In this document: in pieces, positions 4,559-64,000 of the stretch
Position numbering within the stretch: the stretch's first letter is position 1
How the letters are laid out: each line of letters starts with the position of its first letter
DNA from: Polaromonas sp. C04
GTDB lineage: Bacteria; Pseudomonadota; Gammaproteobacteria; Burkholderiales; Burkholderiaceae_C
Reading direction: 5' to 3'
NCBI RefSeq assembly: GCF_002002705.1
Contig: NZ_MUNS01000035.1
Location: 1-64,000 of the forward strand
Length of the DNA stretch: 64,000 bases
Notes under the pieces: generated by a model
What the model was told of the DNA's origin: nothing
Seen by the model: the letters and a program-made list of their open reading frames with translations, nothing else
Database searches by the model: none
Position numbers and translations under genes: made by a program

Positions 4559-7209
4559 GCGGCGTCCCAGAAGTCTTTGCGGCACAGGCCGCGCGCGGCG
4601 CAAAAGTCGCAGGCCGAACCTTCGCCCAGCGCCGGCAGGGCGGCGCCCTCGCCAATGCGCGCCATGTCGTGCAGGATGCCGGCGATCAGCGCGTCGCGCA
4701 CCTCCACCACGGCGGGCTGTTCGACCGCGGTGGTCGCGCCCTTCTCGCCCACGTTGAGGTAGGCCGCGCGCAGCGTGTCGTGCGGCTGCAGCGCGGCATA
4801 GAAGGCCAGCTGCGTGTCCTCGGTGGGCTGCCGGACGCGCTCGCGCGTCTTGGCCAGGGCCTCGGTCTTGTAGTCGATCAGCAGGACCGCGTCGTCCGCG
4901 TCCTGGTCGATACGGTCGATCTGGCCGATTAGCGTGAGCACGCCGAGCGGCTGCTCCTGCCAGGCCTCGGCCTGCTCGAAGCGGGCGCCGCTGGCTTCGT
5001 GTCCGGCGAGCCAGGCGAGGTAGCCATCGCGCACCTGCGGCCACGCGGCGGCGAACGGCAGGAACTCGTCTTCGCCGAGGTGCATGGCTTCGGTGATTTC
5101 TTCGGCTGCTACATTAATCATAGCTACCAGCGCAGGCAGGTCATGGGCTGGAGCCGCTTTTAATGCTTCATGAAAGGTTTTGAGCACCGCATGCAGCCAC
5201 AGGCCGAAGTCGCGCTTGTCAACTTCGCCCTCGAGTTCGTCGGCCTCCTTCAGGCCGAGCTGGCGCAGTGCAAAAAAGCGGTAGGGGCAGCGCCGCAGAT
5301 CCTCGTAGGCGCTGGCCGACAGGCGCTGCACCGGCAGGCTGGGTGCCACCGGCTGCGGCCGTGGCGCGGGTTGCGACGGCACGGCGCGGTGCTCGCGCGG
5401 GTCCATGGCCGTGGGCGCAAGGCCCTCCAGCAGCAGTTCCTGCACCAGCGGGCTGGGCAGCAGCGGCTCGCCCGTGTCGTCGCTGTGGCGCCACAGCACG
5501 TCGCCGTGCGGCGTCTGCAGTGCATCGCGCCAGGCGGCGCGCACGGCCAGCGCCAGCGCCTCGCGCGTCGGCAGGGCGAGCGCTGCGCGCTGCGCGGCGG
5601 TCCACGGCCCCGGCGGCTCGGGCGAGACCGCCAGGCGCACCTCGTCGCAGCCCGGCAGCACCACCGCGGCAAAGGGACGCGCCAGCAGTTGGGACATCGG
5701 CAGAATCACCACCTGCTCGTCGCCTGCCAGGCTGGTGTGCGACGGCACAAATTTGTCGGCCTCCAGCGCTTCGTTGACCCAGGCCGTGAATTCGGCCAGA
5801 TCCAGCCGCCGCGTGGCCCAGACCGTGGGGGCCAGCGACTGCTCGAACGCGCCCTGCTCCGCCGGACTCAGGCGCAGCACGGCCAGCAGCTTGTCACCGG
5901 CCGCGTCGCCGGCCAGCAAGGCCCACTGCCCGCTGGCGTGCAGGAGCACACGCAGGCCCTCAAGCCACTGCACCAGCGGTCGGGGGCGCTGGACGGTTTG
6001 CAGCAGGCGGTTGACCTCAAGGGTCAGCGCCGTCAACGCCGCGATCCCGGGTTGCGCAGTGTTCGCTGTCGGATCAGGCGCATTCCACGCCCGCCAGGCC
6101 TGCACGCCAGCGCGCCGCAGTGATTTTTCGAGGAGCAGGACCTGACTCTGCGCAAAGGCCGGAGCGTTCTTCAGCCAGTCCAGTACGGCGTCGGAGCTGG
6201 CGTCCCAGCGGCAGGCCCGCAGCGCGCCCATCACATGGGCGGCGGCGCGCGTGGTCGAGAGCGTCCAGCCGTTCTCGTCGCGGATCGTGATGCCCTGCGT
6301 GTCCAGCATGGCGCGCACGCGGCGCGTCAGCACGCGGTCGGTGGCGGCCAGCGCCACCGGCGTACGCCCGGCCTCGATGTGGCGCAACACGCAGGCGGCC
6401 GCGCGCTGGGCCTCGTCCTCAAGGTCGCGCGCCGCATGCAGCACGATGCTGCCGCGGGCAGCGTGTGTCGGCAGCGCGATGGACGCGGCCTTGTCGCCCC
6501 TCTGCGCCTGCAGCGCCTGCGCCAGGGGTTCGGCCTGAAAGCCTTCCAGCACGATCAGGCAATCCAGTCCGGTGCCGCCAGCGGCATCGACGGCAGTCGC
6601 CTCGAACAGCGTATCCGTGGCATAGCTGGAGGCCGCCGCCCATTCCAGCGCCACGCGGGCCACGGCCGCTTCCAGCGCCAGCACCGGGGCGTCCAGCCCC
6701 GAGGCCACCACGGCGCGCGCACGGGCCACCCAGGCCGGCCGCTGCGCTGGCGCGATGGCGGCGACCAGCGCGGCCAGTTGCTGCGCGGACTCGACCAGCC
6801 GGCCCGCCAGGCCGTCGCGCTGCGCACCCAGCCCGGCGCGCTCCAGCAGGGTTTGCGCAGTGAGCCCATCGCGCGCTGCATCGAACGTGATGTCGTCCGG
6901 CCCGGGCATGAAGCCCGTCATGCTGCGGGCCCAGTTCCGGGTGGTTTCAAAGCGCGGCGCGAAGCCGCCTTGCATCACTTGCGACCAGAGTTTTTGCGCC
7001 AGCGGCATGAGCTGGGCGTAGGGCAGCAGGACCACGGTCTGCACCGGGTGCAGCGCCGGTTGCGCCATGCAATGCTCAATCGCCGCGGCGATTCTGGCGA
7101 TCAGCCCGTCTTGCGGATCGAGCCACAACGCGCGCACCGGATGCCCTGGCGCCAGCGCGGATTCATGGCTTTTTGCTATCACGTTCATAGAGTCCGCGTC
7201 CCCGGTCAT
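4555..7209 (-). CDS. addB: AddB-like PD-(D/E)XK nuclease
   Basis: This 884-residue protein fits the AddB partner of the AddAB end-resection complex. The C-terminal third holds the nuclease: LSASAYEDLRRCPYRFF, later VLLIDYKTEA (Asp779, Lys781). Four cysteines fit the AddB iron-sulfur clamp: Cys641 in RRCPYRF, and Cys867, Cys870 and Cys876 at the very C-terminus (ACDFCAARGLC). The N-terminal part is a degenerate helicase-like region with no obvious Walker A, as known for AddB. It is shorter than the firmicute enzyme. It overlaps addA by four bases. A second Met at 7188 is a possible start. The 65 bases up to trxA form a divergent promoter region. One 56-base repeat copy lies inside it, in a linker before the nuclease core. 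Confidence 0.88.
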   Translation of the reverse strand: MTGDADSMNVIAKSHESALAPGHPVRALWLDPQDGLIARIAAAIEHCMAQPALHPVQTVVLLPYAQLMPLAQKLWSQVMQGGFAPRFETTRNWARSMTGFMPGPDDITFDAARDGLTAQTLLERAGLGAQRDGLAGRLVESAQQLAALVAAIAPAQRPAWVARARAVVASGLDAPVLALEAAVARVALEWAAASSYATDTLFEATAVDAAGGTGLDCLIVLEGFQAEPLAQALQAQRGDKAASIALPTHAARGSIVLHAARDLEDEAQRAAACVLRHIEAGRTPVALAATDRVLTRRVRAMLDTQGITIRDENGWTLSTTRAAAHVMGALRACRWDASSDAVLDWLKNAPAFAQSQVLLLEKSLRRAGVQAWRAWNAPDPTANTAQPGIAALTALTLEVNRLLQTVQRPRPLVQWLEGLRVLLHASGQWALLAGDAAGDKLLAVLRLSPAEQGAFEQSLAPTVWATRRLDLAEFTAWVNEALEADKFVPSHTSLAGDEQVVILPMSQLLARPFAAVVLPGCDEVRLAVSPEPPGPWTAAQRAALALPTREALALAVRAAWRDALQTPHGDVLWRHSDDTGEPLLPSPLVQELLLEGLAPTAMDPREHRAVPSQPAPRPQPVAPSLPVQRLSASAYEDLRRCPYRFFALRQLGLKEADELEGEVDKRDFGLWLHAVLKTFHEALKAAPAHDLPALVAMINVAAEEITEAMHLGEDEFLPFAAAWPQVRDGYLAWLAGHEASGARFEQAEAWQEQPLGVLTLIGQIDRIDQDADDAVLLIDYKTEALAKTRERVRQPTEDTQLAFYAALQPHDTLRAAYLNVGEKGATTAVEQPAVVEVRDALIAGILHDMARIGEGAALPALGEGSACDFCAARGLCRKDFWDAA
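5108..5163 (+). repeat. 56-nt dispersed repeat, copy 3 (in addB, antisense)
   Basis: It begins gctacattaatcatagct and carries catgggctgga at positions 35-45. On the addB strand it encodes LKAAPAHDLPALVAMINVA, the same antisense frame as copies 1 and 4 to 7. Confidence 0.75.
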
Positions 7210-9561: not shown

Positions 9562-11262
9562 GTGAACCAGCCGACCCCCGCCATCGTTGCCCAGGGCGCC
9601 GTGCGTCGCCTGCCGCGCATCGCGCTGCTGCTGTTTTGCGCCGCCTACGTGCTGCCCGGCTTCATCGGCCGCGAGCCCTGGAAAAGCGCCGACATGACGT
9701 CGTTCGGCTACATGCTGGAGCTGGCGCGCGGCGCCAGCGGCTGGCTGCATCCGCAACTGCTCGGGCTGCCGCCGGAGACTGACGGACCCCTGCCGTACTG
9801 GCTCGGCGCCTGGGCCCTGCAGGCGGCCCCGGGCTGGATCACTCCGGCCTTTGCGGCCCGCATCCCGTTTGTGTTTTTGCTGGCGCTGACCCTGGTCGCG
9901 ACCTGGTACGGCGTGTACTACCTGGCGCGCAGCACGCAGGCCCAGCCGGTGGCGTTTGCCTTTGGCGGCGAGGCCAAACCAACCGACTACGCCCGGGCCA
10001 TGGCCGACGGTGGTCTGCTGGCGCTGATGGCCTGCCTTGGGCTGGCGCAGCTGTCGCACGAAATCACACCCGCCCTGACGCAGGTCTGCTTTACCGCGCT
10101 GACCTTTTACGCCGTGGCAGCGGCCCCCTATCGCACGGTGGCCCCCGCCATTGGCTTGACTGTGGGCATGGCCGGACTGGTGGCGAGCGGCGCGCCCGCC
10201 ATGGCCACGCTCTTCGCGGCCGGCAGCGCGCTGCTGTGCCTGGCCGAGCCGGATGAAAGCCATGACGCGCGCCGGCGCAGCATTTTCTGGGCCTGCGGCA
10301 TCGTCGTGGTGACCCTGCTGGCGGCCTGGCTGGCAGCGTGGCTGGACCTGTGGCGCTGGCGCGCCACCCTCCCCGAGAGTCGCTGGGTGGAATGGCGCAA
10401 CCTGGGCCGGCTGCTGCTGTGGTTTACCTGGCCGGCGTGGCCGCTGGCCTTGTGGACCCTGTGGCGCTGGCGCCGGCAACTGGCCAGTCGCCAGCTCAGC
10501 CGGCACCTGGCCCTGCCGCTGTGGTTTGTGCTCGTCTCGGTGGGCGCCATGACCATCATGCGGCCGGCCGACCGCGCCCTGATGCTGGGGATGCCGGCGC
10601 TGGCGACACTGGCCGCGTTCGCGCTGCCCACGCTCAAGCGCAGTGTCACTGCGTTGATCGACTGGTTCACCCTGCTCTTTTTTACGGGCTCGGCCGTCAT
10701 CATCTGGGCCATCTGGATTTCGATGCAAACCGGTTTCCCGAAGCAGCCCGCCGCCAACGTGGCGCGGCTGGCCCCCGGGTTTGAACCCAGCTTCTCGCTG
10801 CTGGCATTTCTGGTCGCGCTGGCCGCCACGCTGACCTGGGGCTGGCTGGTGAAATGGCGGGTCGGGCGAAACCGCGCCGCCATCTGGAAAAGCCTGGTGC
10901 TGCCCGCCGGCGGCACCGCGCTGAGCTGGCTGCTGCTGATGACGCTGTGGCTACCGGTACTGGACTTTGCGCGCAGTTATGCGCCGCTGGTGGGGCGGGT
11001 CGTGAGTGTCATCAACCGGCCGGAATGCGTCGAAGTCTATGGACTGAGCCGCGGCCAGATTACGGCCTTCCAGTACCACGGCCATTTGAACCTCAAAGAG
11101 GCCGCGATGCAGGCGCAGTGCCCCTGGCTGGTGGTCGACGCCGATGCGCGCGACACGCTGCACAAGTCCGTGAACCTCAAGCAATGGACCCTGCAGGGCA
11201 TCTTCCGCCGCCCCTCGGACGACAACGAGAATGTGCTGCTCTACAAGCGTGCGCCTCGCTAG
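9562..11262 (+). CDS. GT39/ArnT-like membrane glycosyltransferase
   Basis: A 566-residue, highly hydrophobic protein with a series of Leu/Ala/Trp-rich membrane segments. The first luminal loop after TM1 reads GREPWKSADMTSFGYMLELARG, which matches the position of the acidic catalytic loop in the PMT/ArnT (GT39) fold. A soluble C-terminal domain follows (about 470-566). Such enzymes move a sugar from a polyprenyl-phosphate donor to lipid A, protein or another acceptor in the periplasm. The acceptor here is unknown: no arn genes are nearby, so an aminoarabinose role is not supported. The start is GTG at 9562; the ribosome binding site is weak. It lies just after the rpmE2 terminator. Confidence 0.75.
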   Translation: MNQPTPAIVAQGAVRRLPRIALLLFCAAYVLPGFIGREPWKSADMTSFGYMLELARGASGWLHPQLLGLPPETDGPLPYWLGAWALQAAPGWITPAFAARIPFVFLLALTLVATWYGVYYLARSTQAQPVAFAFGGEAKPTDYARAMADGGLLALMACLGLAQLSHEITPALTQVCFTALTFYAVAAAPYRTVAPAIGLTVGMAGLVASGAPAMATLFAAGSALLCLAEPDESHDARRRSIFWACGIVVVTLLAAWLAAWLDLWRWRATLPESRWVEWRNLGRLLLWFTWPAWPLALWTLWRWRRQLASRQLSRHLALPLWFVLVSVGAMTIMRPADRALMLGMPALATLAAFALPTLKRSVTALIDWFTLLFFTGSAVIIWAIWISMQTGFPKQPAANVARLAPGFEPSFSLLAFLVALAATLTWGWLVKWRVGRNRAAIWKSLVLPAGGTALSWLLLMTLWLPVLDFARSYAPLVGRVVSVINRPECVEVYGLSRGQITAFQYHGHLNLKEAAMQAQCPWLVVDADARDTLHKSVNLKQWTLQGIFRRPSDDNENVLLYKRAPR

Positions 11263-11264
11263 AG

Positions 11265-11340
11265 CCCCCACGCTTGCCACTGCGTGTGCTGCGCTGCCCC
11301 CCGAGGGGGCTGAACTTGCTCGGGGCGGCCCTTCGCTGCA
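11265..11340 (+). repeat. GC-rich dispersed intergenic repeat, copy 1
   Basis: It fills the whole gap between the GT39 gene and the MATE gene. It contains cgcttgccact, gtgtgctgcgctgcccc, a palindromic ccccccgaggggg and cttgctcggggcggccc. The same blocks recur on the minus strand at 56220-56324 and partly at 62569-62612. It ends three bases before the MATE start codon and leaves no clear ribosome binding site. Confidence 0.8.
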
Positions 11341-11343
11341 TTC

Positions 11344-12717
11344 ATGCCCGAGCTGAAAGTCATCATCCGGCACGCCGTCACCGTGCTGGTGGGCCAGCTG
11401 GCCGTCATGGCATTCGGCGTGACCGACACCATCGTGGCCGGGCGCTATTCCGAGACTTCGCTGGCTGCGCTGTCGGTGGGCTCGGCCATCTACATCAGTG
11501 TCTACGTGGCCTTGATGGGTGTCATGCAGGCGCTGCTGCCGGTCTGGGCCGAACAGCATGGCGCGCGCCGCCTGGCCGACGTAGGCCGCTCGCTGCGCCA
11601 GGCGCTGTACCTGTGCGCCATCACCATCGTGATGGGGATGGCGGCCCTGCTGTCGCCGGACGCGGTGCTGCGCTGGACCGAGGTGCCCGCCGCACTGCAG
11701 GGCGAGGTGCAGCGCTACCTGGGTGTGCTCGCCCTCGCGCTGGCCCCGTCCCTGCTGTTTCGCATCTACAGCACGCTGAACCAGAGCCTGGGCAAGCCCC
11801 AGCTCGTGACCTGGCTGCAAATCGGCTCGCTGTTCATCAAGGTGCCGCTCTCCATCTGGTTTGCCTTTGGCGGTCTGGGCCTGGCGCCGCAAGGCGTGGT
11901 CGGATGCGCCTGGGCCACCCTGGTCGTGAACTACGCCATGCTGGCGCTGGCACTGTGGCTGCTGCGCACCCAGGACTTCTACCTGCCCTACCGCATCTGG
12001 CAACGGCTGGAGCGGCCCGACTGGCGGCAAATCGGCGAGTTCGCGCGACTCGGCATTCCCGGCGGGTTGGCCATTTTGGTGGAGATCACCTCGTTCACAC
12101 TGATGGCGCTGTTCATCGCCCGACAGGGCACGGCGGCCGCAGCGAGTCACCAGATCGCGGCCAACCTGGCGGCCGTGCTGTACATGATGCCGCTGTCGAT
12201 CGCCATTGCCACCAGCGCGCGCACGAGCTACTGGCTCGGGGCCGGCGACCCGCGCCGCGCCCGCGCCGCCATTCGCATGGGTTTTAAGCTTGTAGCCCTG
12301 ATGGCTATTGCGCTGTCCACTATTCTTTTCATAGCACGCGGGGAGGTAGCGGAAATCTATGCGCGCAACCCGGCCGTGATTGCGCTGGCCAGCGCCCTGC
12401 TCGCCTGGGTCGCCGCCTACCACCTGGCCGACGCGGTCCAGACCCTGTGCGTGTTTGTGCTGCGCTGCTATCGCGTGACCGTGGCGCCGCTGCTGGTGTA
12501 TTGCGTGCTCTTGTGGGGATTGGGACTGACGGGCGGCTACCTGCTGGCTTACCACGGTGTCGGGACTGTCCACGCCATCGCATCGCCCATCACGTTTTGG
12601 GCGACCAGCGCCATCGCGCTGGCCCTGACCGCGACTATTTTTGCAGCGATTCTGTGGCGGGCCGTGCGGCGACCGGCGGCGCGGCAGGCGCAGGCGCCGC
12701 GCCGCCCGGCCCCTTGA
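11344..12717 (+). CDS. MATE-family efflux transporter
   Basis: A 457-residue protein of the multidrug and toxic compound extrusion family, with about twelve membrane helices in two homologous halves. The start shows the MATE pattern: VLVGQLAVMAFGVTDTIVAGRYS, then LAALSVGSAIYISVYVALMG. It would export cationic drugs or metabolites using Na+ or H+; the substrate cannot be told. Its last 83 bases overlap the 3' end of phoR on the other strand. One 56-base repeat copy lies in the coding sequence (12280-12335), where it is read as the membrane segment LVALMAIALSTILFIA. The upstream gap is entirely repeat, so translation may rely on a weak start. Confidence 0.88.
   Translation: MPELKVIIRHAVTVLVGQLAVMAFGVTDTIVAGRYSETSLAALSVGSAIYISVYVALMGVMQALLPVWAEQHGARRLADVGRSLRQALYLCAITIVMGMAALLSPDAVLRWTEVPAALQGEVQRYLGVLALALAPSLLFRIYSTLNQSLGKPQLVTWLQIGSLFIKVPLSIWFAFGGLGLAPQGVVGCAWATLVVNYAMLALALWLLRTQDFYLPYRIWQRLERPDWRQIGEFARLGIPGGLAILVEITSFTLMALFIARQGTAAAASHQIAANLAAVLYMMPLSIAIATSARTSYWLGAGDPRRARAAIRMGFKLVALMAIALSTILFIARGEVAEIYARNPAVIALASALLAWVAAYHLADAVQTLCVFVLRCYRVTVAPLLVYCVLLWGLGLTGGYLLAYHGVGTVHAIASPITFWATSAIALALTATIFAAILWRAVRRPAARQAQAPRRPAP
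12280..12335 (-). repeat. 56-nt dispersed repeat, copy 4 (in MATE gene, antisense)
   Basis: On the minus strand it begins gctatgaaaagaatagtgg and carries atcagggctac at positions 35-45. On the MATE coding strand it reads LVALMAIALSTILFIA, a helix-compatible peptide, in the antisense frame shared with copies 1, 3, 5, 6 and 7. Confidence 0.7.
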
Positions 12718-32889: not shown

Positions 32890-33750
32890 TTATTCATCAG
32901 CATTGTCCGCTACCGGATTCATAGCGCGCAAGATTTTCAGTGCGGCCACGGTCTCGCGCACGTCATGAACCCGCACAATCGCCGCGCCGCGCTCCACCGC
33001 CAGCAGCGCCGCGGCCACGCTGGGCACCATGCGTTCGCTCGCGGGCGGCGCCAGGCCGTCAACGGCAGTCACCGCCGCCAGCGACGACTTGCGTGACCAG
33101 CCCGCAAGGATCGGATAGCCCGCCGCCAGCAGTTCCCGCTGGCGCGCCAGAAGCGCAAAGTTTTGCGCCACGGTTTTGCCAAAGCCGATGCCGGGATCCA
33201 GCACAATGCGCGCCTTATCGACGCCCAGCCCCTGCAGGGCCTGCGCAGTTCGCTCCAGAAACGATAGCACCTGCGGCACCACGTCGCCCGCCATGGGCGC
33301 GGCCTGCATGGTCTGCGGCTCGCGGTGCATGTGCATCAGGCACACGCCGCAGGTGGGGTGTCCGGCCACGACCTGCGCGGCGCCGCTCTGGCGCAAGGCC
33401 CAGATGTCGTTGATGATGTCGGCGCCCAGATCCAGCGCGGCCTGCATGACTTGCGGCTTGTAGGTATCGACGGACAATGGCACGCCCAGCTTGACCGCCT
33501 CCCTGAGCAGCGGCAGCACGCGCGCCAGTTCCTCGTCCAATGGCAGCGGCGGCGCGCCGGGACGGGTGGACTCGCCGCCGATGTCCAGGATGTGCGCCCC
33601 GTCCTTGAGCAGTTGTTCGCAGTGCTTGAGCGCGCTGGCGGCCCCGGCATGCTGGCCGCCGTCAGAAAACGAGTCGGGCGTGACGTTGACGATGCCCATC
33701 ACGCGCGGCTGCGTCAGGTCCACAGAGTAGCGGGTGGTTTGCCAGAACAT
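32890..33750 (-). CDS. folP: dihydropteroate synthase
   Basis: A 286-residue TIM-barrel enzyme joining p-aminobenzoate to the pterin in folate synthesis; it is the sulfonamide target. Signatures: VMGIVNVTPDSFSDGG, HILDIGGESTRPGA, SVDTYKPQVM, INDIWALR, LDPGIGFGKT and GWSRKS. It lies 56 bases after ftsH and 16 before glmM in one operon. A partial match to the 56-base repeat (gctaccggattcatagc) at its 3' end is too short to count. Confidence 0.97.
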   Translation of the reverse strand: MFWQTTRYSVDLTQPRVMGIVNVTPDSFSDGGQHAGAASALKHCEQLLKDGAHILDIGGESTRPGAPPLPLDEELARVLPLLREAVKLGVPLSVDTYKPQVMQAALDLGADIINDIWALRQSGAAQVVAGHPTCGVCLMHMHREPQTMQAAPMAGDVVPQVLSFLERTAQALQGLGVDKARIVLDPGIGFGKTVAQNFALLARQRELLAAGYPILAGWSRKSSLAAVTAVDGLAPPASERMVPSVAAALLAVERGAAIVRVHDVRETVAALKILRAMNPVADNADE

Positions 33751-38835: not shown

Positions 38836-39270
38836 TCAGTCAGGCGAGCGCGGAGCCGGCACCAGCGTCCACAGCACCACGCCGGCGCACAGCCACTGCA
38901 CCAGGTACATCGCACTGCCCACGCTGTGCCAGAGCCGGAGGTTCTCGCGCGCCACGATCCTGGGCGCCACGGCAAACTGGCTGAGCAGGGCCAGCAGCAG
39001 GCCGAGAACTATAAAAATAATAGCAAACTGCGCCCACTCAGCCAGGGCTTGAGACTGTTTTGACGTCGAAAGCAGCAACAGCAGCAGACCGCAGGCCACA
39101 GACACCCAGGTTTGCGCCGCGAACAATTTGGCCGCCATGCCGCCCGCCATCGCCGGCGTAGGCAGGTTGGCAAACAGCAGGGGCACCACCAGAAAACCGA
39201 TGGTCGTCAAACTGCCCCACCACAGGGCGGCAATCAGGGCCGGAAAGCGTCGTTTCAAAACGCGCGCCAC
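38836..39270 (-). CDS. DUF4149-type membrane protein
   Basis: A 144-residue protein with four hydrophobic helices. LWWGSLTTIGFLVVPLLFANLP and a C-terminal RENLRLWHSVGSAMYLVQW fit the DUF4149 group of small inner-membrane proteins, whose function is unknown. The GTG start abuts the greA stop (TGA-GTG), so it is made from the greA transcript. One 56-base repeat copy (39008-39063) lies within, coding antisense for QALAEWAQFAIIFIV, half of which forms a membrane helix. Confidence 0.8.
   Translation of the reverse strand: MARVLKRRFPALIAALWWGSLTTIGFLVVPLLFANLPTPAMAGGMAAKLFAAQTWVSVACGLLLLLLSTSKQSQALAEWAQFAIIFIVLGLLLALLSQFAVAPRIVARENLRLWHSVGSAMYLVQWLCAGVVLWTLVPAPRSPD
39008..39063 (+). repeat. 56-nt dispersed repeat, copy 5 (in DUF4149 gene, antisense)
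   Basis: It begins actataaaaataatagcaa and carries gccagggcttg at positions 35-45, ending in gttttga. It is read by the gene as QALAEWAQFAIIFIV, in the shared antisense frame. Confidence 0.78.
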
Positions 39271-44393: not shown

Positions 44394-44399
44394 ATTATA
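44394..44399 (-). promoter_or_regulatory. candidate -10 element for carAB
   Basis: The minus strand reads TATAAT exactly, overlapping the stop codon of the trmH-type gene, about 120 bases before carA. No good -35 is seen at 17 bases. The 120-base leader shows no hairpin I would call. Confidence 0.4.
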
Positions 44400-45192
44400 G
44401 CGGAGCGGCAGCCTGCGGCTGCCCAGAAGTGGCAGCGACCGCGCTGGCGTGCAGGCAAATAGCGGCGGCGGCGGCCACGTTGAGCGACTCTTCGCCGCCC
44501 GGCTGCTCGATGCGCACCGACAGGCTGGCGCGCGCCATCAGTGCCGCACCCACGCCCTGCCCTTCGTGCCCGAGCGCCCAGGCGCAGGGCATCGGCAATT
44601 TTTGCTCTTGCAAGGCGCTCCCGGTGTGCGAACTGGTCACGACAACCGGCACCGTCAACGCGTCCAGCGCATCCGGTTCGACGCCTTCGACCAGCCGCAG
44701 CGCGAAGTGCGCGCCCATGCCGGCGCGCAGCACCTTGGGAGACCACAACGCGGCCGTGCCTTTGAGCGCGATGATCTGGCCAAAACCAAACGCCGCCGCG
44801 CTGCGCAGGATGGAGCCCACATTGCCGGCGTCCTGCACCCGGTCCAGGATCACCGAGGCCGTGCCGGGCACCAGCGCAGGGATGGCCGGCAGGTCGATCA
44901 CAAAAGCCATGCGGGCCGGCGACTCCAGCGCGCTGATGCCGGACAGCAGCGCATCGGCAATCACTATTGTTTTAATAGCTGCCTGCGTCCATTGCACCGG
45001 GGCTAGAGGCCAAAAAGACTCCGAAAACACGGCGATGGCCGGCCGCACGCCGCGCGCCAGGGCGGCGCGGCACAGATGGTCGCCTTCGAGCCAGACCTGT
45101 CCCCGCTTGCGGTAGGCCGTGCTGTCCTGCGAGAGCCGGCGCAGCTCCTTGAGCAAGGCGTTGTCGCGCGACGTGATGTGGGTCGCGTTCAT
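44395..45192 (-). CDS. TrmH/SpoU-family rRNA 2'-O-methyltransferase
   Basis: A 265-residue SPOUT methyltransferase: an N-terminal substrate-binding domain ([15 protein letters not shown]...[12 protein letters not shown]) and a C-terminal knotted SAM domain with [31 protein letters not shown] and [18 protein letters not shown]. These are the three SpoU motifs. The exact rRNA or tRNA site is not deducible. The ATG overlaps the rnhB stop (ATGA). One 56-base repeat copy lies in the linker between the two domains. Confidence 0.92.
44963..45018 (+). repeat. 56-nt dispersed repeat, copy 6 (in trmH-type gene, antisense)
   Basis: It begins actattgttttaatagctg and carries ccggggctaga at positions 35-45. 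The gene reads it as [15 protein letters not shown], in the shared antisense frame, within the inter-domain linker. Confidence 0.78.
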
Positions 45193-45806
45193 CGCAGCAC
45201 CCTGGATACCGGTGCAAACGTTTTGCGGTGCTGCGGGCACGCACCATGCTCCTGCAGCGCGGCCATGTGCTCGGCGGTGCCGTAGCCCTTGTGCCCGGCA
45301 AAACCGTATTGCGGATACTGCTCGTGATACTGCACGCACCAGCGGTCGCGGTGCACCTTGGCCAGGATCGACGCGGCCGAAATGGCCGGCACCAGCGCGT
45401 CGCCCTTGACGATGGCCTCCGCCAGCATGCCAAGCTGCGGCAGCCGGTTGCCGTCGACCAGCACCTTGGCCGGCTTCAGCCGCAGGCCCTGCACGGCGCG
45501 CTGCATGGCCAGCATCGTCGCCTGCAGGATGTTGAGGCGGTCGATTTCTTCGACGCTGGCCTCGGCGATCGAGCAGCACAGCGCCTTGGCGCGGATTTCA
45601 TCAAACAGCTGCTCGCGTTTGCGTGCGCTGAGTTTTTTCGAGTCGGCCAGGCCCGCGATCGGATTCAGCTCGTCCAGAATCACGGCCGCGGCCACCACCG
45701 GCCCGGCCAGCGGGCCGCGGCCCGCTTCATCCACGCCGGCCACCAATCCCGGCGCGTCCCACACGAGCGCAACTTGCTCAGCCTTGAAGAATTTTCTGGA
45801 TCGCAT
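45189..45806 (-). CDS. rnhB: ribonuclease HII
   Basis: A 205-residue RNase HII that removes ribonucleotides from DNA. Catalytic acids: [21 protein letters not shown] (Asp and Glu), VLVDGNR and the C-terminal FAGHKGYGT region. The ATG at 45806 overlaps the lpxB end by 29 bases, which is long but gives the best family start. It ends by an ATGA overlap with the trmH-type gene. Confidence 0.96.
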
Positions 45807-46932
45807 CGGTCGCTAGTTTGGCTGTGTCGCGCCGCAGTTCGGTGTGCAGCGTGGTGAATCGTTGCTGGATGGCCGCTATTTTCTCAGGCGCGGCCTGCAG
45901 CCACTGCAGCACGGCATCCGCCAGCGCCCGCGGTGTCGCCGCGTCCTGCAACAACTCCGGCACGACAAAGTCGCGACACAGGATGTTGGGCAGCCCGACC
46001 CAGGGCTGCAACTGCTTGCGCCGCATGATGTGCCAGGACATCCAGTTCATGTTGTAGGCAATCACCATCGGTCGCTTGTACAGGGCCGCCTCCAGCGTCG
46101 CCGTGCCGCTGGCGATCAGGGTGACATCACAGGCGGCCAGCGCGGTGTGCGACTGGCCCGACAGGATTTGCAAATCGCCCCCCAGGCCACTGGCCAGCGC
46201 CATCTGCTCCAGCGTGGCTTTCAGCGCCGGCACCGCGGGAACTATGAATTTGATAGCATGATTCGCTTGTCTTATAAGGGCTGCGGCCTCAAAGAACCTT
46301 GAAGCGAGATACTGGACCTCGGATTGGCGGCTGCCCGGCAATAGTGCCACGACCTGATCATCGGAGCTCAGACCCAGCTTCAGGCGCGCGGCTGGCCGAT
46401 CCGGCTGCATCGGAATCACACTGGCCAGCGGATGCCCGACATAGGTGGCGGCGATGCCGTGGCTCTCCAGCAGCGCCGGCTCGAACGGAAAAATGCACAG
46501 CACGTGGTCCACGCTGCGCTGCAGCTTTTGCACCCGGTCGGCACGCCAGGCCCAGATCGAGGGACAGATGAAATGCACGGTCTTGATGCCCTGCGCCTTC
46601 AGGGCCGCTTCCAGATCCAGATTGAAGTCGGGCGCATCGATCCCGATGAACATCTGCGGCGGCTGCAGCAGCAGCCGGGCCTTGAGCTGGTTGCGAATGC
46701 GCAGGATGCCGCGGTAGTGCCGCAGCACTTCGACGTAGCCGCGCACGGCCAGCGCCTCGCTGGGCCACCAGGCCTCGAAACCGCGCTGCGCCATGTTCGG
46801 CCCGCCAATGCCGCCGGCCCGGACTTGCGGCCAGCGCTCGCGCAAGCCGTCCAGCAGCAATCCGGCCAGCAGATCGCCCGAGGTCTCGCCGGCCACCATC
46901 GCGATGTGCGGCGATACGTCATGCGCCTGCAT
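45778..46932 (-). CDS. lpxB: lipid A disaccharide synthase
   Basis: A 384-residue GT19 enzyme joining UDP-2,3-diacylglucosamine and lipid X. Conserved blocks: [38 protein letters not shown]-like [35 protein letters not shown] and [11 protein letters not shown]. The start [16 protein letters not shown] at 46932 lies eight bases from the lpxA stop. One 56-base repeat copy (46241-46296) encodes [19 protein letters not shown]; remembered E. coli LpxB has a segment of the same length here, so the copy seems to replace, not add, sequence. Confidence 0.96.
46241..46296 (+). repeat. 56-nt dispersed repeat, copy 7 (in lpxB, antisense)
   Basis: It begins actatgaatttgatagcat and carries ataagggctgc at positions 35-45. 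lpxB reads it as [19 protein letters not shown] in the shared antisense frame. Confidence 0.72.
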
Positions 46933-53421: not shown

Positions 53422-54612
53422 TCATGCCTCCATGCGCGCCACGACGCGCTGCGCGGCTGCGCGCGCACGTGCATCGAGCGCCAGCAGATCATCCAGCGTC
53501 CGGGGGATGGAGGTCGTAACAGCTTGCAAAGTTTCAAGATTGATATGGTGAATCTGATCGAACCGGATGCGTTTGTCCAGAAAGGCCGCCACGGCCACCT
53601 CATTGGCCGCATTCAGCGTGGCACAAGCGCCTGCCGGCGCGCGCAGCGCCTCCCACGCGAGCTGCAGGCCCGGAAAACGGTCCCGGTGCCCCTGTGTCTC
53701 AAATGACTCGAAGGTCATGCCCGACAGCGTCCTGAAGTCGAGCGCCTGGGCGCCCGAGGCGATGCGCTCGGGCCAGGCCAGGCCATAGGCAATCGGCACC
53801 CGCATGTCGGGCGTGCCAAGCTGGGCCACGATCGAGGCGTCGCGGTACTGCACCATCGAGTGAATCACGCTTTGCGGGTGAATCACCACCTCAATCTGCT
53901 GCGCCGGCATGTCGAACAAGTAGCGCGCCTCGATGACTTCGAGCGCCTTGTTCATCATGGTGGCCGAATCCACCGAGATCTTGCGCCCCATGACCCAGTT
54001 CGGGTGCGCGCAGGCCTCGTCGGGCGTGACGTCCGCCAGCGTCGCCGGCTCGCGCGTGCGAAATGGTCCGCCAGACGAGGTGAGGATGATTTTCTCGACC
54101 CGTTGCTGCCAGCTGGCAGGGTCTTCGGGCAAGGACTGAAAGATGGCGGAATGTTCGCTGTCGATCGGCAGCAACGTCGCCCCACCCTCCCTGACCGCCC
54201 GCATGAAGACATCGCCCCCCACCACCAGCGCCTCCTTGTTCGCCAGCAGCAGGCGCTTGCCCGCTCTGGCCGCAGCGAGGCACGAGGCCAGCCCGGCGGC
54301 CCCGACGATGGCGGCCATGACGGTATCGGTCAATTCATGGGACGCTATCAACTTAATAGCTTCAGGTCCAGACAGCACCTCGACATCAAGCCCATTTGCC
54401 TTGATTTTTTGAGCCAGCTCCCGGCCATGCGGAGCGCTGGCCATCACGGCGAACCGGGGCTTGAACTGCGCGCACTGCTGCAGCATCAGGTCTACCCGGG
54501 TTGCCGCACTGAGGGCAAACACCTCGAACCGGTCCGGGTGCCGGGCCATCACATCGAGCGTGCTGGTGCCGATGGAACCGGTCGACCCCAGGACGGTAAC
54601 GCGCTGCTTCAT
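53422..54612 (-). CDS. dxr: 1-deoxy-D-xylulose-5-phosphate reductoisomerase
   Basis: A 396-residue enzyme committing to the MEP isoprenoid pathway (fosmidomycin target). NADPH site VTVLGSTGSIGTSTLD; catalytic acids and substrate loop in LLPIDSEHSAIFQSLP, SSGGPFRT, HPNWVMGRKISVDSATMMNKALEVIEA. ATG at 54612 is preferred; a GTG at 54621 overlaps the cdsA stop. A shortened match to the dispersed repeat lies at 54344-54361 and reads EAIKLIAS in the shared antisense frame. Confidence 0.96.
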   Translation of the reverse strand: MKQRVTVLGSTGSIGTSTLDVMARHPDRFEVFALSAATRVDLMLQQCAQFKPRFAVMASAPHGRELAQKIKANGLDVEVLSGPEAIKLIASHELTDTVMAAIVGAAGLASCLAAARAGKRLLLANKEALVVGGDVFMRAVREGGATLLPIDSEHSAIFQSLPEDPASWQQRVEKIILTSSGGPFRTREPATLADVTPDEACAHPNWVMGRKISVDSATMMNKALEVIEARYLFDMPAQQIEVVIHPQSVIHSMVQYRDASIVAQLGTPDMRVPIAYGLAWPERIASGAQALDFRTLSGMTFESFETQGHRDRFPGLQLAWEALRAPAGACATLNAANEVAVAAFLDKRIRFDQIHHINLETLQAVTTSIPRTLDDLLALDARARAAAQRVVARMEA

Positions 54613-54617
54613 GGCCG

Positions 54618-55463
54618 TCACCAGGAGACCAGCATCATGGCCAGCGGCAGGGTCGGCAGCAAGGCATCCACCCGGTCCAGCACACCACCGTGGCCGGGCA
54701 ACAGGCCGCTGCTGTCCTTGACACCCGCACTGCGCTTGATGAGCGACTCCACCAGATCACCGACCACGCTCATGGCCGCCATGAACAGAACCGCGAGCAG
54801 CAGCATCCACCAGCCCATGCCGACCAGACGGCTGTAAAAGCTGGCCACCGGCGCCTGCCAGGCCGCATCGGCCCAGACCCACAGGACGGCCAGCAAGAGC
54901 ACGCCGGCCATGCCGCCCCAGACCCCCTCCCAGCTCTTGCCCGGGCTGATGGCGGGCGCCAGCTTGCCCTTGGTGAAGCGGGTACCAAAGGCGCGCCCGG
55001 CAAAATACGCAAAGATGTCAGCGACCCAGACCAGCAGCAGGATGGACAACAGGAAGTTGATGCCGATCACGCGCGCCTGGGCCATCGCCAGCCAGGCCAG
55101 CCATACGGCAGCAAGCCCGCCGACGAGCCGGATGGGCCTCGCAATACGCGGCCAGCCCGCGACGCCGGTACGCAATAGCCACGCCCCCACCAGCACCCAC
55201 GCCGCGCCGACAAAGCGCCACAACCAGGGCGTCGGCATGGACAACAGGCCGAAAGCCCAGCTGCCAACGCACAAAAGCACACAGGCTGCGCCCAGCAGCC
55301 AGGCCAGTGGGTTGCTGCAGTCATTGAGGCGCCCCCATTCCCAGGCGCCGGCCGCGATCAACACCAGCGTGATGGCGCAAAACGGGTCGGGCGACGGGTA
55401 AAACAGGGCCGGCAGCAGGATGGCCAGCAAGACCAGGGCGGTGATGACGCGCTGTTTGAGCAT
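54618..55463 (-). CDS. cdsA: phosphatidate cytidylyltransferase
   Basis: A 281-residue integral membrane enzyme making CDP-diacylglycerol for all phospholipids. About eight helices. The signature SVVGDLVESLIKRSAGVKDS followed by GLLPGHGGVLDRVDALL is complete. It starts nine bases after uppS and precedes dxr. Confidence 0.97.
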   Translation of the reverse strand: MLKQRVITALVLLAILLPALFYPSPDPFCAITLVLIAAGAWEWGRLNDCSNPLAWLLGAACVLLCVGSWAFGLLSMPTPWLWRFVGAAWVLVGAWLLRTGVAGWPRIARPIRLVGGLAAVWLAWLAMAQARVIGINFLLSILLLVWVADIFAYFAGRAFGTRFTKGKLAPAISPGKSWEGVWGGMAGVLLLAVLWVWADAAWQAPVASFYSRLVGMGWWMLLLAVLFMAAMSVVGDLVESLIKRSAGVKDSSGLLPGHGGVLDRVDALLPTLPLAMMLVSW

Positions 55464-56195: not shown

Positions 56196-56219
56196 GGTGT
56201 GGTGCGGGTTGGGCAGGAG

Positions 56220-56324
56220 CGCCGCCGGGCCGCCCCAAGGCGCGAGAGCCCCCAGCCCAAGCAACGCGCAGGGCACACCTGCGCTTGGGGGCAGCGCAGC
56301 ACACGGAGTGGCAAGCGTGGGGGC
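56220..56324 (-). repeat. GC-rich dispersed intergenic repeat, copy 2
   Basis: On the minus strand it opens gcccccacgcttgccact and continues with gtgtgctgcgctgcccc, then ccttggggcggcccggc. The same blocks, in order, make up the gap at 11265-11340. It fills most of the 133-base frr-uppS gap and falsely extends the uppS frame. Confidence 0.8.
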
Positions 56325-59687: not shown

Positions 59688-61064
59688 ATGCTCGCCGACC
59701 TCCACACCACCCTGCAACACATCCGCTCCGGCCAGACCAGCGCGAGCGCGGAAATTGAAAAATCCATTGCCGCCGCCCGGTCCCCCGCCTGCGACCACGC
59801 GTTCCTCAAAACCATGTTCGACGAGGCCCGGGGCGTGGTCGCCGATGTCGATAGCCGGCACCAGCCGCTGGCCGGCCTCGCCGTCTCGGTCAAGGACCTC
59901 TTTGACATCGCAGGGCAGACCACGGCCGCCGGATCGGCCGTGCTGGCCGACGCGCCGGCCGCCGTTGCGGACTGCCCCGCCGTGGCGCGCCTGAAGGCGG
60001 CCGGCGCCGCCCTGATAGGCCGCACCAACATGGTGGAATTCGCGTTTTCGGGTATGGGGATCAACCCGCATTTCGGCACCCCGGCGGCATGGGACGGACG
60101 CTTCGACCAGCCTGCGGGCGGCGCGGCCTCGCCGGCCCGCATTCCCGGTGGCTCCTCCTCGGGCGCCGCCGTGTCGGTCGCGACCGGGGCTGCGTTTATC
60201 GGTCTGGGGTCCGACACCGGCGGCTCGATCCGCATCCCGGCCGCGCTGAACGGCATCGTGGGCTTCAAGAACACCGCGCGGCTGGTCCCCACGGACGGCG
60301 CCCTGCCCCTGTCCACTACGCTGGACACTGCCTGCGCCATGACGCGCTCGGTGCAGGGCGCCATGCTCGCGCACCAGATCCTGGCGGCGCGGCGCATCAT
60401 CCGCAGCAACGCTCCGCTCTCGAGTTACCGCCTGGCAGTGGTCACAACGGGCATGCTGGATACGCTCGACGCCACCGTGGCGCGCGCGTTTGCACGCACG
60501 CTGCAGGTGCTGCGCGCGGCCGGCGCCCGCATCGAAGAGATTCCGCTGACCGCCATTCGCGATCTCGGCGCGCTCCAGTCCACGGGCGGTTTCTCCGCGG
60601 CGGAAAGCTACAGCTGGCACCGGCCCCTGCTGGAACGCCACGCGGCCGGTTACGACCCGCGCGTAGCGACCCGCATCCAGCGCGGCGCGGCCATGAAGGC
60701 GTACGAATACATCGACCTGATGCAGGCCAGGGGCCGCTGGATTGCCGGTGTGGAAGCCGCGCTGCAAGGCTTTGATGCCGTGCTGTCACCGACCGTGCCC
60801 ATCGTGGCGCCCTTGATCGCCGACGTGGCCCCAGCCCTTGGGCTGGACGCGGCACAGGATGCGGCGCGCGACGCTGAGTTCTTCCGCGTCAACGCCCTGC
60901 TGCTGCGCAATACCAGCGTGGTCAACATGCTCGACGGCTGCGCCATTTCGATTCCATGCCACGCCGCCGACGAGTTGCCCGTGGGTCTGATGCTGTGGCA
61001 CGGCGCGCTGCGCGACGACACGGTGCTGAATCTTGCCCTGCAGGCCGAGCAGGCGCTTCAATAA
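59688..61064 (+). CDS. amidase-signature family amidase
   Basis: A 458-residue amidase of the amidase-signature family (GatA-like fold). The catalytic triad is traceable: Lys69 in AVSVKDLFDIAG, cis-Ser in GGSSSGAAVSVATG (156-158) and nucleophile Ser180 in GSDTGGSIRIPAAL. Substrate is unknown; GatA itself is unlikely, since no gatB or gatC is nearby. ATG at 59688 begins MLADLHTTLQHIRSG; the longer frame upstream crosses the rpsB promoter. The stop codon TAA lies inside a 56-base repeat copy. Confidence 0.88.
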   Translation: MLADLHTTLQHIRSGQTSASAEIEKSIAAARSPACDHAFLKTMFDEARGVVADVDSRHQPLAGLAVSVKDLFDIAGQTTAAGSAVLADAPAAVADCPAVARLKAAGAALIGRTNMVEFAFSGMGINPHFGTPAAWDGRFDQPAGGAASPARIPGGSSSGAAVSVATGAAFIGLGSDTGGSIRIPAALNGIVGFKNTARLVPTDGALPLSTTLDTACAMTRSVQGAMLAHQILAARRIIRSNAPLSSYRLAVVTTGMLDTLDATVARAFARTLQVLRAAGARIEEIPLTAIRDLGALQSTGGFSAAESYSWHRPLLERHAAGYDPRVATRIQRGAAMKAYEYIDLMQARGRWIAGVEAALQGFDAVLSPTVPIVAPLIADVAPALGLDAAQDAARDAEFFRVNALLLRNTSVVNMLDGCAISIPCHAADELPVGLMLWHGALRDDTVLNLALQAEQALQ

Positions 61065-61110
61065 GCATAGCGCATTGCCAATGCCCTTCATGGGCTGGAG
61101 GCACTTTTCA
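61055..61110 (+). repeat. 56-nt dispersed repeat, copy 8 (over the amidase stop)
   Basis: It begins gcttcaataagcatagcgc and carries catgggctgga at positions 35-45. The amidase frame enters it and stops at the TAA within its first ten bases. The following 180 bases to dadA hold no gene I can support. Confidence 0.75.
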
Positions 61111-61257
61111 TGCTGAATCTTGCGGGCCGGCGAGCGGCCGGCTCAAGCCCGGTGCGGCGCACGGCCTGGCGCTGACCGCGGCCGCCTTGGTGCTGCTGCA
61201 GCGCCGGCTCCGGTAAAGCCCGCGCCTGGCCACTCGTATATCCTCGGCACCTGTCTG

Positions 61258-62547: not shown

Positions 62548-62568
62548 CGCGCCGGCCGGTGCACGCAC

Positions 62569-62612
62569 GGCCCGAACTTGCTTGGGGCGGCGCTTCGCGG
62601 CCTTGGGCACAA
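62569..62612 (+). repeat. GC-rich dispersed intergenic repeat, copy 3 (partial)
   Basis: It contains gaacttgcttggggcggc followed by gcttcgcgg, matching the second half of the copy at 11265-11340 at about 24 of 28 bases. The first half (the gtgtgctgcg block) is absent. It sits in the 72-base dadA-nnr gap. Confidence 0.65.
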
Positions 62613-62619
62613 TCGGCCC

Positions 62620-64000
62620 ATGCTTCGCATCACCCCCGATCACCCGCACCCGCTGTTCGACATCGCCGCGACCCGTCGCCTTGAACAGGCGGCCACGGCG
62701 ACGTTGCCGCCGCACACGCTGATGCAGCGCGCCGGACTCGCCACGGCCCGGCTGGCGCTGGCGCTGGCGCCGCATGCGCGCACCGTCTGGATCGCCTGCG
62801 GGCCGGGCAACAACGGCGGCGACGGGCTGGAGGCTGCCGCGCAGCTGCAACGCTGGGGCAAACAACCCGTGGTGACCTGGCTGGGCGATGAGGCCAGGGC
62901 CCCGGCAGACAGCCTGGCCGCGCTGGCGCGGGCGCGGCAGGCGGGCGTGGTGCTGGCCACCGCGCCGCCCACCGACCTCACGCGCCAGGACCTGTGCATC
63001 GATGCCTTGCTCGGCATCGGCAGCACCCGGGCGCCCGAGGGTCGCATGGCCGAGTGGATCGCCCGGTTCAGCCGCGGCGCCGCGCCCGTGCTGGCCGTCG
63101 ATGTGCCGTCCGGGATGAATGCCGACACGGGCACGTTTGCTACAAACTCAATAGCAGAATCTTCACGTTCCATAAGGGATTCAGATGGTTTTAATGCTCA
63201 GCACACGCTGAGTCTGCTGTCATTGAAACCGGGCCTGTTCACCGCCCACGGGCGCGACGCCGCAGGCCAGGTCTGGTTTCACGACCTGGGCGTGGACAGC
63301 GCCGCACAGACCCCCGCCGCCGTGTTGCAGGGGCCGCCGCTGGACGGCCCGCGCGCGCACGCCACGCACAAGGGCAGCTACGGCGACGTTGCCGTCATCG
63401 GCGGCGCACCCGGCATGGCGGGCGCGGCGCTGCTGGCGGCCAGCGCCGCCTTGCACGGCGGTGCGGGCCGCGTCTTCGTGGCGCTGCTGGACCCGCAAGC
63501 CATGGCGGTCGATACGAGTCAGCCGGAACTCATGCTGCGCCGCGCCACGTCGCTCGACCTGGCCTCCATGACGGCGGTCTGCGGCTGTGGTGGCGGAGAC
63601 GCGGTGCGCCACCTTCTTCCCAAGGTATTCTCGACCGCAGCCCATGCCGTGATTGATGCAGACGCTCTCAATTCAATAGCAACCGACACGCAGTTGCAAA
63701 CGCTGTTGCGCGCGCGGACCGGGCGTGATGGCGGCGCCCGCGCGACGGTGCTGACGCCACACCCGCTGGAGGCCGCGCGGCTGCTGGGTGCCAGCGCGGC
63801 CCAGGTGCAAGCCGACCGCTTGGGCGCCGCGCGGCAACTGGTGGAACGCTTCGGCTGCGTGGTTGTGCTCAAGGGCTCGGGCACGGTGATCGCGGCGCCG
63901 GGACAGATTGCAGCGATCAACCCCACCGGCAACGCGCGGCTGGCCACCGCGGGCACCGGCGATGTGCTGGCCGGCATGATCGGCGCGCGGCTGGCGGCCG
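62620..64000 (+). CDS. nnr: bifunctional NAD(P)H-hydrate epimerase/dehydratase (3' end cut by window)
   Basis: From ATG at 62620 the frame is open to the window end. The N-terminal YjeF/NnrE domain reads TLMQRAGLATARLAL and CGPGNNGGDGLEAA with AVDVPSGMNADTG; it interconverts hydrate epimers. The C-terminal NnrD domain shows KGSYGDVAVIGGAPGMAGAALLAA, IDADALN and NARLATAGTGDVLAGMIGA, an ATP/ADP-dependent dehydratase. Together they repair damaged NAD(P)H. A 56-base repeat copy lies at the hinge of the two domains and is read in sense as ATNSIAESSRSIRDSDGFN, an unusual Ser-rich stretch. Confidence 0.95.
   Translation, partial: MLRITPDHPHPLFDIAATRRLEQAATATLPPHTLMQRAGLATARLALALAPHARTVWIACGPGNNGGDGLEAAAQLQRWGKQPVVTWLGDEARAPADSLAALARARQAGVVLATAPPTDLTRQDLCIDALLGIGSTRAPEGRMAEWIARFSRGAAPVLAVDVPSGMNADTGTFATNSIAESSRSIRDSDGFNAQHTLSLLSLKPGLFTAHGRDAAGQVWFHDLGVDSAAQTPAAVLQGPPLDGPRAHATHKGSYGDVAVIGGAPGMAGAALLAASAALHGGAGRVFVALLDPQAMAVDTSQPELMLRRATSLDLASMTAVCGCGGGDAVRHLLPKVFSTAAHAVIDADALNSIATDTQLQTLLRARTGRDGGARATVLTPHPLEAARLLGASAAQVQADRLGAARQLVERFGCVVVLKGSGTVIAAPGQIAAINPTGNARLATAGTGDVLAGMIGARLAA
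63139..63194 (+). repeat. 56-nt dispersed repeat, copy 9 (in nnr, sense)
   Basis: It begins gctacaaactcaatagcag and carries ataagggattc at positions 35-45, ending ggttttaa. It is translated in sense as ATNSIAESSRSIRDSDGFN between the conserved DTGT and HTLSLLSLKPG parts of the epimerase domain. Confidence 0.75.

Follow-up and report, generated by a model that had tools for sequence, protein, structure and literature searches.

Rickettsia palindromic elements are short repeats that lie inside protein-coding genes, where they occupy a permissive frame and lengthen the host protein. REP elements are extragenic, and the HIP1 octamer of cyanobacteria is an 8-bp palindrome superimposed on coding sequence. 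The uptake sequences DUS of the Neisseriaceae and USS of the Pasteurellaceae are 10-12 bp long. As described in the available part of one article (PMC2346458), they are present in at least hundreds of copies per genome, in and between genes, with no overall preference for either orientation across the genome and with one orientation commoner in reading frames; lineage dialects are described in the available part of a second (PMC3630211).

The motif that we describe here, a unit of about 63 bp found within lpxB and elsewhere in the same genome, resembles each of these in part. Like Rickettsia palindromic elements it lies within coding genes, and unlike them it adds no length. With REP elements and RAYT it has in common that it is short, partly palindromic and present in hundreds of copies in a genome with a RAYT-like gene; it differs from them in that many copies lie in genes, that the profile PF01797 also matches in motif-free genera and that no near-identical pair occurs among 55 copies of this genome. 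Like HIP1, which is far more frequent, it is superimposed on coding sequence. The copy number, the location in and between genes, the orientation pattern and the dialects recall DUS and USS, from which the motif is set apart by its length, its unconserved spacers, the lack of a receptor among the genes searched and the lack of clear depletion in unshared DNA. Judged from the available parts of two articles (PMC2346458, PMC2397512), the traits common to the motif and to DUS and USS would speak for a motif carried over coding sequence and not for a function.

A repeat found in an essential gene is commonly taken for an insertion; the unit described here, long and repeat-like, runs over protein code of unchanged length. 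Taken as a whole, the observations are best explained, with a probability of roughly two in three, by a recognition motif superimposed on existing sequence, codons included. It would have been built by point substitutions at places where the demands of protein and DNA could both be met, and would be maintained by selection, or by transmission drive, that acts on the DNA through a putative binding factor, with a DNA-uptake or recombination signal as the closest working analogy.

Definition and distribution of the motif

As a DNA motif the repeat is dispersed and spaced, and reads RCTAYnAAAwnn-ATAGC-N5-GCGC-N9-AAGGGCT-rcaGGCYnATTTgayTnAAA. Alignment of 30 exact hits gave a unit of about 63 nt, in which conserved blocks alternate with unconserved spacers. 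Hits were defined by the search pattern ATAGC-N6-CGC-N9-AAGGGCT, with the reversed pattern as control. Over-representation of the DUS and USS type was evident in this genome (G000), with 278 hits at up to two mismatches against 14 for the reversed pattern. The window, by which we mean the whole 64-kb stretch of DNA analysed, held 12 hits at up to three mismatches against 1.99 expected. A position matrix built from 54 exact hits in G000 and its congener G001, the lpxB copy among them, marked 13 places scoring at least 14 in the window and 19 scoring at least 12 in contig 11 (140 kb); in 784 kb of reversed sequence no place reached 12. Half sites seldom occur alone (2 of 30 in G000). In samples of 400 kb, units scoring at least 20 occurred about once per 6.6 kb in G010, with a matrix from nine of its own units, and once per 10.5 kb in G001; motif-free genera had none in 340 kb. 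A coding position seems likely for about 10 of the 13 units in the window and, in contig 11, for 4 to 6 of 19, so that an overall figure of about half is approximate. These calls were made from Pfam matches (window only) and conserved alignments; scoring of third codon positions was set aside because its threshold was too strict and missed lpxB.

Across the family, 63 of 120 genomes have at least one hit at one mismatch, and 28 have five or more. The carriers are some genera of one family, and the motif follows genera: those named among the matches listed include Rhodoferax, Polaromonas, Simplicispira, Giesbergeria and some Acidovorax and Comamonas. The matches listed from the exact-pattern scan also include a few unrelated titles with single hits. 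Dialects are apparent, since allowing AAGCGCT beside AAGGGCT raises the count in G010 from 113 to 195 hits and in G000 only from 129 to 132. Among 97 genomes from other families of the order, none lay clearly above its own control except G217 (family f51), with five hits. Four of these five are one identical sequence, ATAGGTGTAAGCGCTTGGACATCAAGCGCT, with the look of a small mobile repeat built on the same centre. Exact matches occur in 61 stretches of viral contigs, and chance alone gives at least that many by a rough estimate with an assumed collection size.

Literature on this group, searched also by the motif letters and with few subscription journals covered, yielded no description of the motif and no uptake signal for this bacterial group. 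The available part of a paper on Rhodoferax ferrireducens describes CRISPR repeats and holds nothing resembling the motif (PMC2755013).

Motif copies within genes of the window

The gene in which the repeat was originally noticed, and the copy within it, are as follows.

45778-46932, minus strand: lpxB, lipid-A-disaccharide synthase, 384 residues (Pfam PF02684, E=4e-96; PDB 5w8n)
46241-46303, plus strand: motif copy in lpxB, antisense to the gene, with full codons for LpxB residues 211-230; score 54.3

The sequence noted at 46241-46296 is present there, and by the position matrix the lpxB unit spans 63 nt and not 56. The initial annotation had proposed that the repeat replaces residues of LpxB and adds none, and the alignments bear this out. 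The segment was free of gaps in all 34 sequences compared, which comprised the best 30 loci of 117 matching family genomes and four further congeners, with two partial pieces from G002 left out. It was likewise gapless against PDB 5w8n, which we take to be the E. coli LpxB, and positions 1-371 of the Pfam LpxB profile corresponded to residues 10-375 of the window protein. No close orthologue proved to be 18-19 residues shorter, the outcome that the initial annotation had proposed to look for, and ten motif-free LpxB proteins are equal in length.

At a score of at least 25, the motif stands at the same codons in 22 of 24 genomes with five or more pattern hits and in none of ten genomes with 0-1 hits, again at equal length. 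These ten encode a similar segment in quite different DNA letters (scores -9 to -39). The two remaining genomes, G093 and G012, carry copies elsewhere and none in LpxB, which counts against the superimposed-motif explanation. On an LpxB tree made with the motif columns excluded, motif presence takes 6 changes (6-8 in bootstraps); shuffled presence takes 8.9 on average, and 5 of 500 shuffles were as low as 6. Motif presence is clustered and the well-supported branches alone force only 1 change; the 34 genomes are therefore not independent.

The LpxB proteins of G005 (L039) and G004 (L040) fall inside a well-supported group (97/98) with those of G090, G010, G016, G009 and G093, and are only 68-69% identical to the window LpxB, though both genomes are listed in the same genus. 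Transfer may explain this, or the genus may be too broadly defined.

The other copies in the window, with the gene of the second one noted originally, are given below in order of position.

1716-1778, plus strand: motif copy in a UvrD/AddA-like gene (1235-5044, minus strand); score 61.8; gapless in G001, G003 and G005
2436-2498, minus strand: motif copy in the sense frame of the UvrD/AddA-like gene; score 46.9; AGAGC in G000, G001, G003 and G005
5108-5170, plus strand: motif copy in an AddB-like PD-(D/E)XK gene (4558-7209, minus strand); score 48.3; gapless against motif-free G087
12273-12335, minus strand: motif copy in a MatE-family gene (11344-12714, plus strand); score 36.3; gapless in four congeners
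33206-33268, minus strand: weak motif copy in a FolP-like gene (32893-33750, minus strand); score 26.3
39008-39070, plus strand: motif copy in a DUF4149 gene (38839-39270, minus strand); score 54.5
44963-45025, plus strand: motif copy in a SpoU-family rRNA methylase gene (44398-45579, minus strand); score 46.6; gapless against five motif-free genera
53422-54621, minus strand: dxr, 1-deoxy-D-xylulose 5-phosphate reductoisomerase (Pfam PF02670/PF08436/PF13288; PDB 1q0h)
54344-54406, plus strand: partial motif in dxr, with only the 5' palindromic half (54344-54360, 17 nt) clear; whole score 14.1
61055-61117, plus strand: motif copy running from the 3' end of an amidase (PF01425) gene, mostly intergenic; score 39.8; site common to congeners
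63139-63201, plus strand: motif copy in a YjeF/NAD(P)H-hydrate gene (62548-63999, plus strand, reaching the window end); score 32.8
63618-63680, minus strand: weak partial motif in the YjeF gene; score 15.6; gapless in aligned genomes

Gene families were assigned with Pfam; the names AddA and AddB are our own assignments from domain make-up. Codon alignments with motif-free genera are gapless at LpxB, Dxr, AddB, FolP, the SpoU methylase and one of the two YjeF sites (63618); the two AddA-like sites and the MatE site were compared with congeners only. An old insertion with a compensating deletion, one of two routes that the initial annotation had offered, would need the exact length at one after another of these gapless sites. 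The alignment of the FolP-like copy has no gap relative to G050 and G087, both motif-free, or to G005, where the score is -16.8. The Dxr copy had been called partial and length-neutral, and it is both: it aligns without gaps to PDB 1q0h, presumably the E. coli Dxr, and in 11 aligned genomes. Its palindromic end reads ATAGC or GTAGC in G000, its congeners and G104 and in none of the five motif-free genera, with length constant. Two sites lie in loops of varying length, with indels of 1-4 residues between genera, and none of about 21, in the DUF4149 protein and of 1-13 residues at the YjeF site 63139.

Coding presence without protein lengthening, a trait of DUS and USS, was thus found, and host genes longer than their motif-free orthologues, as with Rickettsia palindromic elements, were not. 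Insertion with lengthening of the protein was rejected, as the orthologue alignments, including those with PDB 5w8n and 1q0h, give it no support.

Eight of 11 gene sites read antisense to the motif, and the consensus core has one antisense frame without a stop. In the AddA-like copy that lies in the sense frame, ATAGC would create an in-frame TAG stop; AGAGC stands in its place, and the four congeners are alike in this.

These alignments show that the motif leaves length unchanged in lpxB and in most of the other window genes set against motif-free genera, and that different species keep its spine at the same sites. Divergence from G000 in the spine, set against four-fold sites of the window genes, was 0.062 against 0.089 in G001, 0.104 against 0.153 in G006, 0.137 against 0.289 in G003 and 0.203 against 0.344 in G005. 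The variable blocks diverged by 0.19-0.21, 0.22-0.29, 0.28-0.38 and 0.42-0.43 in the same four genomes, mostly above the four-fold sites, the exception being one G003 block (0.275 against 0.289). Between G000 and G001 these blocks (for example 46258-46263 and 46267-46275) differ about twice as much as four-fold sites (0.20 against 0.089), which counts against the explanation that we prefer; the elevation is seen at 13 sites of the coding class (0.173) and at 12 others (0.236), with flanks at 0.06. Codon preference may hold back change at the four-fold sites, or local rewriting may act on the spacers. Since the variable blocks diverge faster than the four-fold sites, there is room for some local rewriting.

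Origin of the coding copies

The motif could be an old mobile repeat, akin to REP or MITE elements and dispersed by a RAYT-like transposase, with intergenic copies inserted and coding copies owed to compensating deletions or another origin. We regard this as unlikely, though several observations point to it. Five of 14 motif-bearing genomes, and none of 6 motif-free ones, have a unit that overlaps the 3' end of the RAYT-like gene in the orientation of that gene (scores 15.2 in G000, 28.5 in G104, 21.3 in G010, 26.9 in G077 and 39.9 in G041; loci L338, L340, L343, L345 and L349), and is followed by a TTTTGAT.TGTCCC-like stretch. In G016 a unit scoring 38.5 lies just before the start of the RAYT-like gene. 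Two near-identical inverted copies flank the gene in G041 (L349:2164-2226, plus strand, and 3562-3624, minus strand). This pair is the clearest sign of recent copying seen, and only G041 has strong copies on both sides of the gene. The centre of the G010 unit (9 units) is a perfect inverted repeat, AGCGCTTG..CAAGCGCT, and PF01797 matches in 26 of 28 genomes with at least five hits against 62 of the 92 others.

Against a mobile origin, the RAYT-like protein is about equally conserved in motif-free genera, the downstream TGTCCC stretch is present at motif-free loci too, and 8 of the 14 bearing genomes have no unit at the 3' end or only a trace (G029, 2.2). The coding genes are unchanged in length relative to motif-free orthologues, and the 55 copies from G000 include no related ones. 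Nor is the conserved hairpin of REP elements evident: the strongest column pairs of these 55 copies display no clear Watson-Crick covariation, and folding energy is ordinary in 7 of 8 window copies, the exception being the copy at 5108 (z -2.43). The extragenic location of REP elements does not hold either, as LpxB, the AddA-like, AddB-like and SpoU methylase genes and others carry copies. The units at the 3' end of the RAYT-like gene are the best lead for a RAYT link, and they may instead be one old conserved site, as in LpxB. Judged by presence, RAYT does not stand out as the driver: PF01797 matches occur in 88 of the 120 genomes and show no tie to the motif.

The window also holds a second, truly inserted family of intergenic repeats (GCCCCCACGCTTGCCACTGCGTG...), at 11253-11345 and about 56200-56324, an inverted pair 45 kb apart. 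It is present or absent among congeners as indels, with copies up to 98-99% alike, and sites that lack it are shorter by 69 to 105 nt (first site, G001 and G005; second site, G006, G003 and G005). Because these indels are seen in some of the same genomes, they serve as a positive control: true inserted repeats are visible in these alignments.

Most of the intergenic motif sites compared between G000 and G001 are shared and gapless. Two intergenic copies of G001, at c1 118009 and c1 105843 (in loci L100-L106, joined and reversed), are missing from G000. For one of them the difference is a 98-nt block with the motif copy, directly after an apparent stop codon, present in G001 and absent in G000; this one intergenic presence/absence favours a mobile repeat and counts against a motif built in place. 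Relative to G000, a second G001 site is an unclear replacement and a third has a rearranged flank. In a gene that we take from its own sequence to be glycerol kinase-like, the copy scores 34.5 in G001 and 14.7 in G000, with no gap. Intergenic copies can thus come and go with DNA blocks, and the coding copies compared change by substitution.

Overwriting at equal length, in which another repeat copy would replace a stretch of the gene by templated conversion, was the other route offered by the initial annotation, and we consider it improbable. That the repeat occupies pre-existing residues stands; conversion and insertion with compensating deletion are both less likely than point substitution as the way in which it came to do so. 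Conversion would suit the length neutrality of the copies and the greater divergence of the G000-G001 variable blocks relative to flanks or four-fold sites. It would also suit the uneven change over 25 sites (0-6 of 12 positions), LpxB being among the most changed (6 of 12). It makes three predictions, namely shared donor blocks, a peptide unlike LpxB and a difference spectrum of random letters, and none of the three was seen.

With regard to donors, a BLAST search of the 81-nt LpxB region in its own genome gave no near copy (best other E 0.08). Among 55 distinct G000 copies, a sample of several hundred, similarity in the variable blocks is close to that of a column-shuffled null; the best pairs agree at 11 of 15 variable columns (4 pairs against 3.7 expected). 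Since pairwise identity resembles the shuffled null, no sampled G000 copies appear recently related, and there is no excess of related pairs.

As to the peptide, LpxB under the motif is still LpxB-like, with 0.40 identity to motif-free LpxB (22 bearing and 10 free; G093 and G012 left out) against a mean of 0.149, and 0.265 for the best single copy, when 54 other G000 copies are read in the LpxB frame. The segment is variable anyway: identity to motif-free LpxB is 0.39 for all 24 genomes with at least five hits, and motif-free pairs reach 0.45, against 0.69 in the flanks. That the bearing proteins are under the motif slightly less like the motif-free ones (0.39) than these are among themselves (0.45) counts against the preferred explanation. 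Selection after overwriting could restore some LpxB-like residues, and the peptide comparison alone is not proof.

The spectrum of G000-G001 differences in the variable blocks (42 transitions, 19 transversions) is mutation-like, as in the flanks (288:154), and unlike random letters. Together, the shuffled-null similarity, the LpxB-like peptide, the mutation spectrum and the stop-avoiding AGAGC variant, the last of which likewise speaks against conversion, agree with substitution in place under the constraints of the protein. Build-up by point changes in codons already there suits the data better than conversion or insertion plus deletion.

Chance resemblance, with the LpxB protein sequence alone forcing the motif letters, has a negligible probability: the residues are natural for LpxB, PDB 5w8n having TAQLLRQTYPDLEIV there, but the ten motif-free genomes encode their similar segment in other letters and the genome-wide counts lie far above control.

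Possible function as an uptake or recombination signal

In this environmental family of Betaproteobacteria, a 63-bp address motif that varies in dialect from genus to genus and lies in hundreds of copies per genome over core-gene codons might act, by analogy with DUS and USS, as a signal for the uptake of self DNA or for recombination. We advance this tentatively as the leading candidate function, and think it possible rather than probable. If true, such signals would have arisen independently once more, and this one would be by far the longest of them. The length of 63 bp is itself long for an uptake signal and counts against the superimposed recognition motif that we favour. So does the distribution of copies, which are not clearly rarer in DNA that only one of G000 and G001 has (6 copies in 48 kb of such unshared DNA and 51 in 334 kb of shared DNA, with both directions summed and shared sites counted twice).

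The driver gene profiles tested were PF01797, TIGR00361 and TIGR00426. ComEC is found in 118 of 120 genomes, the match in motif-bearing G048 being weak (E 6.5e-4), and the ComEA model gave no match over cut-off in any of the 120. As a discriminator between motif-bearing and motif-free genomes, the competence genes are not informative here. The ComEC and ComEA searches of the 120 genomes yielded no candidate for a binding factor, which also counts against the superimposed-motif explanation. Were a reading factor found, DNA-level selection on core genes would be shown, and annotators would be warned against treating such repeats as mobile.

A role in chromosome polarity, of the KOPS or Chi type, was rejected, as the motif falls on the G-rich and C-rich strands at 27:34 in G010 and 18:20 in G001 (400 kb each). 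The hit lists of G216 and G010 looked one-stranded over long stretches; a fuller list for G010 has hits on both strands there.
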